Below are positions 786 to 6,792 of a stretch of DNA of 58,626 nt, piece by piece. The position numbers and the translations under genes were made by a program. How positions within the stretch are numbered: the stretch's first letter is position 1; each line of letters opens with the position of its first letter. The stretch covers positions 1 through 58,626 of the forward strand of contig NZ_JAUAOA010000023.1 in NCBI RefSeq assembly GCF_030542965.1. The letters run 5' to 3'. The stretch is from Azotosporobacter soli (GTDB lineage Bacteria > Bacillota > Negativicutes > SG130). Under the pieces are notes generated by a model. That model was not told where the DNA came from. It saw only the letters and a program-made list of their open reading frames with translations, and made no database searches.

Positions 786-2765
786 ATGAAATTACGCGGC
801 AAACTTACGTTGATCTTTTCGGTACTGACACTGCTCGTGTTGCTGATTACATCGATTGTCGGTTATAAATTTGCCGAACAACAAGTGACGAGCGGAATTG
901 AAAGGGAACTGAATGAAAGCATCAATGCGCATGCGAACAAGTTGGACGGTTGGTTGATCAGTAAAGCGAAGATGCTGGAAATTACAGTGGGAACGCTGAA
1001 AAGTACGGTCGGAGACGGTGAAATTACGGTGCCGATGCTGGCCGGATACAAGACGGTGGACAAGGAATTATCGGATGTGTATTTCGGTTCGGCGGAAGGG
1101 AAAATGATTGACGGCAGCGGCTGGACGCCGCCGGCGGATTATGACCCGCGCGCTCGTTCCTGGTATAAGGATGTAAAAGCGCAGGATAAGTTGATCTTTA
1201 CCGATCCGTATCTGGATATGGTTACGAAGAAGATGGCGGTGTCGGTCGCGCTGCCGGTGAAAAACGCGGCAGGCCAATTGCGCGGCGTGGCGGCGGAAGA
1301 TATTTTGATGCAGACGCTTGTCGATAGCATCAAAGATATCACTCTGAACGGTGAGGGGTATGCGTATCTGCTTGACGCAAAGGGCGTGATGCTGGCGCAT
1401 CCGGTAGCCGAGCTGGTGAACAAGAATGTATTGAATGATGAAAGCGACAAAGCATCTGCGGCGCGAACCAAAGAAATGCTAAGCAATGAACGGGGCTTCA
1501 TCAAGTACAGCTTTAATGACAAGGACGTCATGGTCGTATACAAGAAAGTGCCTGCAACGGGCTGGGTCTTGGCGATTGCGGTGCCGCAAGAGGTCGTGTA
1601 CAAGCCGTTGGCGGCGCTGAAGTGGCTCTATGGGGCGCTTACGTTGGGCGCGATGCTCCTAGTGCTTTTGGTCACGTTCATCACCGCGAAGCGGATGACG
1701 AAGCCGATGGAAATTCTGGCTTCACAGGTGAATGTCGTAGCGAACGGCGATTTGACGGTACAGGCGACCGTTAATGGTCAGGATGAGATTGCTTCTCTGG
1801 CAACGGATTTCAACAAGATGGTAAGGAATTTGCGCAAGCTGATCCTTGAGGTGAATCATAGCGCCGAGCAGGTGGCGGCATCTTCGGAAGAGTTGACGGC
1901 CAGCGCGGAGGAATCGGCCAAGGCGTCGAGCCAGGTGGCCGGTTCGATTACCGATATCGCGCAAGGTACGGACGAACAATTGCGCGCGGTTGAGCAGGCG
2001 GAAGACGTGGTCAAAGCGATATCGGACGGAATTGAGCGTATGACGGTCGATGCTGACAAAGCGGTGCAAAAATCGGCGCAGGCGGCCGAACGCGCTAAGG
2101 CGAGCGGTCTTTCAATCGACAAGGCGGTGCATCAAATGCAGTTGATCGAAGAGACGGTCAACACGTCGGCGCAGGTCGTTGCGAATCTTGGCGAACGTTC
2201 GAAGGAAATCGGCCAGATTGTTGAGACGATTTCCGGCATTGCCGGGCAGACGAATTTGCTGGCGCTCAATGCGGCGATTGAAGCGGCGCGCGCCGGAGAA
2301 CAAGGGCGGGGGTTTGCCGTAGTGGCCGATGAGGTTCGTAAACTAGCAGAGCAGTCGCAGGAAGCCGCCAAGCAAATTGCCGCGTTGATTGGTGAAATTC
2401 AAAGTGAGACTGCGAAGGCGGTTGCAGCGATGGACAGCGGCACACATGAGGTCAGCGTTGGGACACAGGTCGTCAATGAAGCGGGCGGCGCGTTCACTGA
2501 AATCGACGGATTGGTGCGGCAGGTAGTGGAACAAATCGAAGGCTTCTCGTCTGCGATGCAACAGATCGACAATGGAAGCCGAAGCATCGTTTCATCGATG
2601 AAAACGATTGATGCGTTGAGCAAGAAGGCGGCTGGGGAAACGCAGACGGTATCGGCTGCGACCGAAGAACAGTCGGCGTCGATGCAGGAAATCGCGTCGG
2701 CGAGCCAAAATCTGGCCGAAATGGCGCAAAAACTGCAGGAAACGGTGAAGCAATTCGAGGTGTGA
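786..2765 (+). CDS. Methyl-accepting chemotaxis protein, dCache type
   Basis: This 659-residue chemoreceptor has an N-terminal membrane segment (about 7-29), a periplasmic dCache ligand domain (about 35-275, with an RSWYKD-type motif common in Cache domains), a second membrane segment (about 280-302), HAMP, and a long cytoplasmic coiled coil. The signalling tip is canonical ([18 protein letters not shown]) and would contact CheW/CheA. The C-terminus shows no CheR-binding pentapeptide. The ATG is preceded by a GA-rich ribosome binding site. Only about 75 bases separate the start from the IS200 right end, so the native promoter may have been displaced. The ligand is unknown; dCache receptors often bind amino acids or carboxylates. 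Confidence 0.93.
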
Positions 2766-2803
2766 AGTTTGTTGTAAAAAGCAGGCCGATAAAAGCATAA
2801 CGC

Positions 2804-2845
2804 AAGTTAAAACAGCAGCCGATGGCTGCTGTTTTAACTTGTTCT
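2804..2845 (+). terminator. Rho-independent terminator after the chemoreceptor
   Basis: A perfect 17-bp stem (2804-2820 with 2824-2840) closes a 3-base loop and is followed by a T-rich run. Confidence 0.85.
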
Positions 2846-2895
2846 TTCTACGCTGATTCGTGGTAAAATAAAAAGCGAAGCAGAGGAGGGAGAGA

Positions 2896-3180
2896 ATGAA
2901 GTCATTACAAAAAGCGGCCGCGTTTCTGGTAATGATCGGTTTGGAACGGGGGCGTAGTGTTCTTGATCTGATGGATAGTGATGAAATAAAAACGGTGGTG
3001 GACGCGATCGGCAAGTTGCCGGCGTTAACGCCCGAGATGCAGCAGCTGGTGTGGCGTGAGTTTGCCGCTTTGGGCTATAAGGAAGATATGAATCCCTCGG
3101 ATACGCTGAATGCGATACGGGGACTGTTTAACGGCAGCAAGATCAGCGAAAGGGCGGCTGCCGGCTGGTTCCAGAAGTAG
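2896..3180 (+). CDS. Free-standing FliG N-domain-like protein
   Basis: This is a 94-residue soluble protein with a good GAGGAGG-type ribosome binding site. Residues 5-60 follow the pattern of the FliG N-terminal domain: a KAAAFLVMIG helix, then ExxxxVLxxMDxDEI, then LTPE and a final EFAALG helix. In flagellar motors that domain binds FliF. The middle and C-terminal FliG domains that contact FliM and MotA are absent, and the last 30 residues match nothing I recognise. It lies between a chemoreceptor and MTA/SAH nucleosidase, not in a flagellar operon. It could be a regulator or decoy for motor assembly, or a diverged helical domain with another role. The family assignment is from pattern only. 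Confidence 0.6.
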   Translation: MKSLQKAAAFLVMIGLERGRSVLDLMDSDEIKTVVDAIGKLPALTPEMQQLVWREFAALGYKEDMNPSDTLNAIRGLFNGSKISERAAAGWFQK

Positions 3181-3255
3181 CGGCAGGAAGTTTTGCGTCG
3201 GGACAGAATATTAGCGAAGTATGGTTTTGTTGGTCAGCGTAAAAAGGAAAGGATG

Positions 3256-3969
3256 ATGAATGAAATGATATTGGGAATTATTGGCGCGATGCAGGAAGAA
3301 ATCGAACTGTTATTGACGAAGGTGAAGACCGAAAAGACCGTTGAAAAGGCCGGGCTGAAATTCTTCGTCGCAACCTATAAGGGAGTAAAAGTCGTCATTG
3401 TCAAAAGCGGCATCGGCAAGGTCAATGCGGCGCTGTGTGCGCAAATCCTGATTTCGGAATTTGCCGTGACCGGAGTTGTCAATGTCGGCTGCGCGGGCGG
3501 CGTAATCCCGAGTTTGGAAATTGGCGACGTTGTCGTAGCGGATGAGGTTGTTGAACACGATTATGATTTGAGTACGGTATGGCCATCGTTCAAGGTGGGG
3601 CAATTGCCGGAGATCGGCCAGTTCATGCAAACCGATGCGACGTACCGCCAAGCGGCGATTAAAGCGGCGCAGTCCATTACGGATATCGGCGTATCAACCG
3701 GAAGAGTGGCGAGCGGCGACACTTTCGTCAGCGATTCGGCGCTGCGTCAGCGGATCGTCGATGCGGTCGCACCGGCCGCGGTGGAAATGGAAGGCGCGGC
3801 AATCGGTCATGTCTGCGTTTTGAACAAAGTTCCGTTCGTCGTAATCCGTTCGATCTCTGATAACGCATCGACCGGCGCGCATAGCTCGTTCGAGGAATTC
3901 CTGCCCAAGGCGGCTGCGAATGCGGCGGCCATCCTGCTGGCGATGCTGGACGGCTTTGCAGCGCAATAA
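3256..3969 (+). CDS. mtnN: 5'-methylthioadenosine/S-adenosylhomocysteine nucleosidase
   Basis: This cytoplasmic enzyme cleaves MTA and SAH to adenine plus methylthioribose or S-ribosylhomocysteine, recycling methylation by-products and feeding AI-2 and methionine salvage. It shows the family start (LGIIGAMQEEIELL), the glycine-rich VNVGCAGG segment, and the VEMEGAAI substrate-binding motif, with the catalytic aspartate in SISDNA. The length (about 237) fits the family. ATG codons at 3253, 3256 and 3265 compete. 3256 is chosen because AAAGGA lies about 7 bases upstream, but 3265 would match the E. coli N-terminus equally well. A 13-bp terminator follows. Confidence 0.93.
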   Translation: MNEMILGIIGAMQEEIELLLTKVKTEKTVEKAGLKFFVATYKGVKVVIVKSGIGKVNAALCAQILISEFAVTGVVNVGCAGGVIPSLEIGDVVVADEVVEHDYDLSTVWPSFKVGQLPEIGQFMQTDATYRQAAIKAAQSITDIGVSTGRVASGDTFVSDSALRQRIVDAVAPAAVEMEGAAIGHVCVLNKVPFVVIRSISDNASTGAHSSFEEFLPKAAANAAAILLAMLDGFAAQ

Positions 3970-5984: not shown

Positions 5985-6623
5985 TTATTTTTTAAACTGT
6001 AGATCGCCGGAGAATTGGAGCGTGTGATTGCCTTTTTCTTCGCTGCGCTGCACGCCGTCGAAGGCGAGCGTCGCCGTTTGAATATCGCTCTTTTCGCTGA
6101 CGAGAACGGTTAGCGAAAATTTTCCTTCCGTCAAAGCGGCGAGTTCTTTTCTGACGCAGCAATCGTCGCCTTCACCATGTTGTTCTTTGGCCATTTCCAA
6201 GAGTTCTTTGAGTTCTTCGGGCAGTTTTGTCAGGTTCAATGTCAGTCGAATCGTATGATCGGCCTGCTCTTCAGCCTGCAACTCCTGTAGAAGATGGAAG
6301 GCCAATGCCAGTTTGCTTAGTTTGGCCTTAAAGCCGCAGCAGCGGCCCATGTGGCGGTGATGATGGCCGAAAGCGTGCCCGCGACTATGGCAACAATTGC
6401 TGAATTCGGTCGTGCTTTGATGCTGGACTTGTTTTCCTTCGTAGTCGAGCGTGGTGTGAATAATGGATTTGCTTTGTTTGGTGAGTAAATTTTTTTCGAA
6501 TTCATTTTGCAGCGTAAAAATTGTGTTTTGATCTTTTTTGATTTCCAGTTTGACAATTCCGGCGGCGCGCTCTTTGGCACGCAAATTTTTTACCACATCA
6601 TAAATTACTTTTAGCTTGTTCAT
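5985..6623 (-). CDS. Uncharacterised duplicated protein with a Cys/His cluster
   Basis: I do not recognise this 212-residue soluble protein. It has no signal peptide or membrane segment. Two related halves can be seen. Residues 3-28 and 103-128 share the pattern KL-x3-[YF]-x-L-L-x-x-L-x-A-x-E-x-A-x-x-I-x-L, and a later stretch (IHTTLDYEGKQ against IQTATLAFDGVQ) also repeats. The linker between them carries CC at 77-78, five or more histidines (83-91) and CC at 95-96; a further CC lies at 155-156. This looks like a metal or redox centre. The start at 6623 has an AGGAGG site. It precedes, in the same direction, a kinase that also carries a His cluster, so a joint metal-related role is plausible. 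Confidence 0.75.
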   Translation of the reverse strand: MNKLKVIYDVVKNLRAKERAAGIVKLEIKKDQNTIFTLQNEFEKNLLTKQSKSIIHTTLDYEGKQVQHQSTTEFSNCCHSRGHAFGHHHRHMGRCCGFKAKLSKLALAFHLLQELQAEEQADHTIRLTLNLTKLPEELKELLEMAKEQHGEGDDCCVRKELAALTEGKFSLTVLVSEKSDIQTATLAFDGVQRSEEKGNHTLQFSGDLQFKK

Positions 6624-6763
6624 GTTATAGCCTCCTGATTTCTTTGTATTGGTTTCTCTGGCTTTAGTATAAAAAATGAAAATAAATGGCTGATAACCAA
6701 AAGATAAAAGTTTTATAAAATCAGTTAAAAGTTTTACGACAGAAGACGGCGGTCTGCTGATCA

Positions 6764-6792
6764 TTGACAGAGCAGAATGGATTCGGTACAAT
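6764..6792 (+). promoter_or_regulatory. Strong sigma-A promoter of the tRNA gene
   Basis: TTGACA (6764-6769) and TACAAT (6787-6792) are separated by 17 bases. The tRNA begins 18 bases downstream. Confidence 0.85.

Follow-up and report, generated by a model that had tools for sequence, protein, structure and literature searches.

A conserved free-standing protein related to the N-terminal domain of FliG in Spo0A-bearing Negativicutes

Introduction

Why should a bacterium encode the N-terminal domain of FliG (FliG_N) as a protein of its own, outside its flagellar operon? The question is raised by a gene of Azotosporobacter soli located at positions 2896-3180 (+) of a contig of 58,626 nucleotides (NZ_JAUAOA010000023.1, assembly GCF_030542965.1), the whole of which is referred to here as the window. 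An earlier note, made from the nucleotide sequence alone, had described its product as a 94-residue protein with the helical pattern of FliG_N but lacking the rest of FliG, encoded just after a chemoreceptor and away from the flagellar genes. This free-standing FliG_N-like protein is referred to below as FGN. No stand-alone FliG_N protein was found in the searchable literature. FGN is a new stand-alone form of a known domain and not a new kind of system.

Results

The gene and its surroundings

The open reading frame lies exactly at 2896-3180 (+), starting with ATG behind a ribosome-binding site, GGAGG, read from the sequence at 2885-2889 (+). It does follow a chemoreceptor gene, at 786-2765 (+), in which Pfam recognises dCache_1, HAMP and MCPsignal domains, and the gap between the two genes contains a terminator-like hairpin of 19 pairs at 2802-2842 (+), found by a pattern scan in which the minus strand also scored. 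Downstream, at 3193-3969 (+) and with a likely ATG at 3253, is a gene of the PNP_UDP_1 family (Pfam E 5.6e-53), presumably coding for an MTA/SAH nucleosidase of the nucleoside-phosphorylase superfamily. FGN has no flagellar neighbours in the window. The fliF-fliG pair and flhA are on another contig of the genome, C7, where a complete FliG of 336 residues directly follows FliF and precedes an open reading frame that we take to be FliH-like, with FlhA nearby. FGN is therefore an additional, free-standing FliG_N-like protein encoded outside the flagellar operon, and the search for a full FliG elsewhere, which the earlier note had proposed, is answered by the protein on C7.

Upstream of the chemoreceptor gene, an IS200-like transposase (Y1_Tnp, E 1.1e-40) is encoded at 115-585. 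Further along the window, 5985-6791 (-) holds a 267-residue open reading frame with many charged residues and a His/Gly stretch that has no Pfam match at E 0.01, and an open reading frame at 13162-14500 matches DUF6056 (E 7.3e-80). Rfam gave only a tRNA, in the window, and a cobalamin riboswitch downstream of the gene in locus L061, and a permissive search of part of locus L062 returned chance matches only. A riboswitch or other RNA element upstream of FGN was rejected.

FGN contains the FliG N-terminal domain

Against Pfam, FGN matches FliG_N (PF14842) over residues 1-80 with an E value of 1.4e-9 and 38.9 bits (cut-off 25), and no other family in a search up to E 10. Each of the 20 aligned family members matches FliG_N (E up to 1), and a search of the PDB with the family profile gave FliG entries only, the best being 5tdy (E 3.6e-9). 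With the model for full-length FliG (TIGR00207) FGN scores 24.7 bits, far below the cut-off of 226.7, showing that the rest of FliG is missing, as had been claimed. The two proteins have the N-terminal domain in common but differ in length, 336 residues compared with about 94, FGN being a separate protein without the helix NM, middle and C-terminal domains of FliG.

Alignment of the FGN family with FliG_N using hhalign is gap-free over 61 columns (probability 97.4, E 1.2e-11) and ends there. Of these 61 positions 27 are hydrophobic in FGN and 24 in FliG_N, with 20 common to both (Fisher P 8.6e-7), and Lys6, Ala8, Gly15 and Phe56 are the same residue, at least 90% conserved, in both families. 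Several invariant or near-invariant FliG_N residues, at positions Ile12, Pro16, Lys24, Thr35 and Ala39, are altered in FGN and Lys49 is replaced by glutamine, while Phe10, Glu17, Gly19, Met26, Asp27, Gly60 and Tyr61 are newly fixed, which could mean that the partner has changed.

From the single sequence AlphaFold gave a poor model (pLDDT 51.6). With a 13-row alignment the best model reached a pLDDT of 87.4 and a pTM of 0.79, two of the five models being high and three low (57, 52 and 47). Using VIA-align, residues 2-60 of this model superpose on FliG_N of the intact motor (8wo5_B5) with a Z-score of 9.0 and 0.9 Å over 59 residues, and residues 1-62 on FliG_N co-folded with FliF (5tdy_B) with a Z-score of 9.0 and 1.7 Å over 62 residues. 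Z-scores below about 13 can be common among helical folds; the match is nevertheless safe because of the gap to the next rows, with the next unrelated chain at 2.4, and because of the match in sequence. Foldseek alone gave a best match of E 0.06, on which the VIA re-alignment was stronger. The structural match covers 59-66 residues, so that the FliG_N pattern, which the earlier note had seen over the whole protein, holds for the four helices of residues 1-61 (2896-3078, +) and stops near there; by both hhalign and structure the C-terminal third is a separate extension.

This family-specific extension, residues 62-94 (3079-3177, +), replaces the region of helix NM in FliG. It comprises a fifth helix, residues 67-76, and a motif of its own, NPSDTLNAIRGLFNGSKI (GY..M.P.E.L..IR.LFNGSKI), with conserved columns at Met65, Pro67, Leu71, Arg75, Leu77, Phe78, Gly80 and Ile83. 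It has no profile match to α5 of FliG, the helix that follows the N-domain, for which 371 of 500 shuffles were as good. Taking sequence and predicted structure together, we conclude with a probability of about 0.95 that FGN is a conserved free-standing protein made up of the FliG N-terminal domain, residues 1-61, and a new conserved C-terminal helix.

The helix at residues 67-76 has a pattern resembling P-x-E/D-x-x-x-x-I-R/K that recalls KPEDVAQLIR in the C-terminal tail of FliF, a tail conserved in all 20 FliF sequences compared (the genome's own and 19 others from the set of carriers). Proline aligns with proline in 18 of 20 rows and only 4 of 500 column shuffles were as good, with hhalign giving a probability of 1.6% (P 0.03). 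Measured against ordinary protein segments, 5 of the 20 rows pass at 5% and 15 do not, so that on the fairest null the similarity is not significant, and since it was noticed first and tested afterwards it is treated here as a lead.

Distribution and phylogeny

In a first set of 100 genomes, consisting of the window's own and others of the same class, matches to FGN were found in 25, of which 21 (the window's own included) have a stand-alone copy and four have full FliG only; in G073, one of the 21, the copy is truncated at the end of a contig. Among 380 genomes of the class, stand-alone copies, defined as frames well under 160 residues or cut, are present in at least 31 among the matches listed, the weaker matches being full FliG. 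In 398 genomes of the phylum FGN was found outside the class in one only, G651, whose locus (L100) is identical to L062 (Peptococcaceae bacterium UBA5318, MAG) over 3264 bp. Named carriers include Sporomusa ovata, S. malonica, S. silvacetica, Sporomusa sp. KB1 and Lucifera butyrica. The 20 complete proteins, that of the window and 19 stand-alone relatives, align over nearly their full length with 13 invariant columns, and the relatives are 44-58% identical to the protein from the window.

In a tree of 57 rows a single branch (100/100) has 28 FGN sequences on one side and 23 FliG sequences from the class with six other FliG on the other, the alignment having few columns (about 100) and the bootstrap being not fully settled. 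This branch, separating FGN from all FliG, is very long. Rows L106 and L107, FliG sequences with wrongly set boundaries, were omitted, and the FliG-like protein L122 was left out of all FliG sets. L122, from a carrier genome (G041, contig C98), is a second, divergent protein bearing FliG_C (353-residue frame, FliG_C E 1.7e-25) and is 28% identical to FliG of the window's genome over the matched part.

Relatives of FGN are absent from viral contigs, phages, plasmids and PHROGs, and an origin in phage or mobile defence was rejected; PADLOC gave only two weak single-member matches (E 0.0014 and 0.009).

Genomic neighbourhoods

When the genes around FGN were clustered over 20 neighbourhoods, those of the window and of 19 relatives, none was widely recurrent. 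A chemoreceptor gene is the immediate neighbour in only two, the window and L047, and is not a conserved partner. The other carriers have unrelated neighbours such as lactate permease, superoxide dismutase, radical SAM and ArsC genes, and among the neighbourhoods whose neighbours were identified FGN is nowhere beside flagellar genes. A DUF1294 gene directly follows FGN in eight loci (L034, L036, L045, L058, L060, L062, L067 and L068), its family confirmed by Pfam in two of the eight. A conserved operon was rejected. DUF1294 and two small open reading frames recur in a subset. A search with a 67-residue open reading frame gave only one weak match in the window's own genome (E 0.0017), which falls within a 501-residue frame, by eye presumably lysyl-tRNA synthetase, and was rejected as chance. 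A conserved 59-residue open reading frame (MKNIEMSLNGDILTIKVDVSKTFGKSSSGKST...) lies upstream of FGN at L062:5773-5949, L064:5774-5947 and L036:524-697, with no Pfam family over the cut-off, and the sequence running up to it occurs again, 90% identical, at L062:3167-3336.

Co-occurrence with FliG and Spo0A

FliG was found in 61 of the 100 genomes, in 20 of the 21 carriers of FGN compared with 41 of the 79 non-carriers (Fisher P 1.3e-4, phylogeny ignored). The remaining carrier, G060, has neither FliG nor FliF; a missing contig is likely, given its two copies of FlhA and completeness of 89%. Spo0A, present in 45 of the 100, is found in all 21 carriers compared with 24 of the 79 non-carriers. 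Within the Spo0A-bearing genomes the link to FliG is gone (20/21 carriers against 20/24 others, P 0.22), while within the FliG-bearing genomes the link to Spo0A holds (20/20 against 20/41, P 2.2e-5). Shared ancestry may explain both links. FGN represents an ancient line of descent, distinct from FliG and retained alongside a complete FliG by flagellated Negativicutes that have Spo0A. Its co-occurrence with FliG agrees with a role in the motor, though not independently of phylogeny.

The link to Spo0A could point away from the motor. It is possible, if somewhat less than probable, that the FliG_N fold has been co-opted outside the flagellum, was made self-sufficient by the additional C-terminal helix and now serves another complex, perhaps one linked to sporulation or to the DUF1294 membrane protein. 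The very long branch between FGN and all FliG, the invariant residues specific to the family and the eight loci with DUF1294 are all consistent with this. Spo0A, on the other hand, marks part of the class, so that the link may be one of ancestry alone, and FGN is missing from 24 of the 45 Spo0A-bearing genomes; DUF1294 is absent from most neighbourhoods, including that of the window, and there is no tie between FGN and any sporulation gene.

The same counts bear on whether FGN is a normal rotor subunit, consisting of FliG_N only, that fills FliF tails left over by a symmetry mismatch between the MS-ring and the C-ring. The predicted fold would fit the site, and the numbers of FliF and FliG can differ: PMC11087270 reports that 58% of C-rings with 34 subunits had MS-rings with 33. 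In that example it is the C-ring subunits and not FliF that are in excess, and 41 of the 61 FliG-bearing genomes are without FGN, which therefore cannot be a required part of the rotor. We regard this explanation as improbable.

Repeated copies and selection

S. ovata has five copies of FGN, four intact and one disrupted (L067), and disrupted copies are also present in Sporomusa KB1 (L068) and S. silvacetica (L066). The S. ovata copies at L056, L058, L059 and L067 are in repeated DNA units, in some of which DUF1294 is downstream; the units contain a conserved 68-residue open reading frame (TEDVIKEEQ...SNEIL) upstream of FGN with no Pfam family over the cut-off. Three of the S. ovata copies are within about 14 kb of one another.

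The median pN/pS for 378 pairs of 28 FGN genes is 0.38, and pairs with the gene in the window give 0.27-0.50, values that are rough because synonymous sites are near-saturated. The recent Sporomusa pair L056-L058 has a pN/pS of 0.97 and differs in its last residues. The start codons chosen in 20 genes are 12 TTG, five ATG, two GTG and one ATA, which is unsettled, and most are preceded by good ribosome-binding sites. The family is under purifying selection, and FGN is a real conserved protein, no fragment or fluke. That it is a decaying or selfish passenger of little function, a duplicated gene piece travelling with mobile repeats, as the multiple, disrupted and repeat-borne copies in Sporomusa might suggest, is disfavoured and quite unlikely given the low pN/pS, the residues invariant across deep divergence, the ribosome-binding sites and the single intact copy in most genomes.

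Discussion

What might such a protein do beside a complete FliG? Tentatively, and at somewhat less than an even chance, we infer that FGN is a soluble mimic of FliG_N that binds the FliF tail or FliG_N itself and modulates C-ring assembly or switching. It would act in trans at the base of the motor, either occupying the C-terminal tail of FliF or pairing with the FliG_N domains in the C-ring's inner lobe and, as it supplies neither FliG_M nor FliG_C and has no torque or FliM-binding parts, would cap, limit or loosen the joint between the MS-ring and the C-ring. Its location away from the flagellar operon would allow it to be expressed at a different time from the flagellar genes, at a guess when cells leave the swimming state. 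The flagellar clutch EpsE and the brake YcgR are likewise small, trans-acting regulators of the rotor. These proteins are unrelated to FGN and act on the motor face of FliG, whereas the site proposed for FGN is the FliF-FliG_N joint. According to PMC6079021, PMC6445934 and PMC11528121, FliG_N folds together with the tail of FliF and makes up the C-ring's inner lobe, and PMC6445934 describes a motor from which FliF_C and FliG_N had been removed as biased to clockwise rotation but still swimming, which makes this joint a workable control point.

A more specific form, in which FGN is a self-complemented version of the FliG_N:FliF_C split domain within one chain, its FliG_N body being joined to a helix like the FliF tail, and exchange of its last helix with FliF or FliG opens the joint between the rings, would seem unlikely. 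The invariant tryptophan and glutamine of FliF in the split domain (5TDY) are missing from FGN. If it were true, FGN would be a rotor-base clutch used by flagellated spore-formers.

All of the torque of the motor passes through the FliF-FliG_N joint, for which no natural regulator is known to us. FGN would be an example from nature of a half-domain, normally co-folded with its partner, evolving alone. If its function is not flagellar, the FliG_N fold has been taken into another machine. As a conserved single-domain protein occurring beside a full FliG, FGN would offer a ready tool for asking whether capping or loosening of the FliF-FliG_N joint is possible in vivo.
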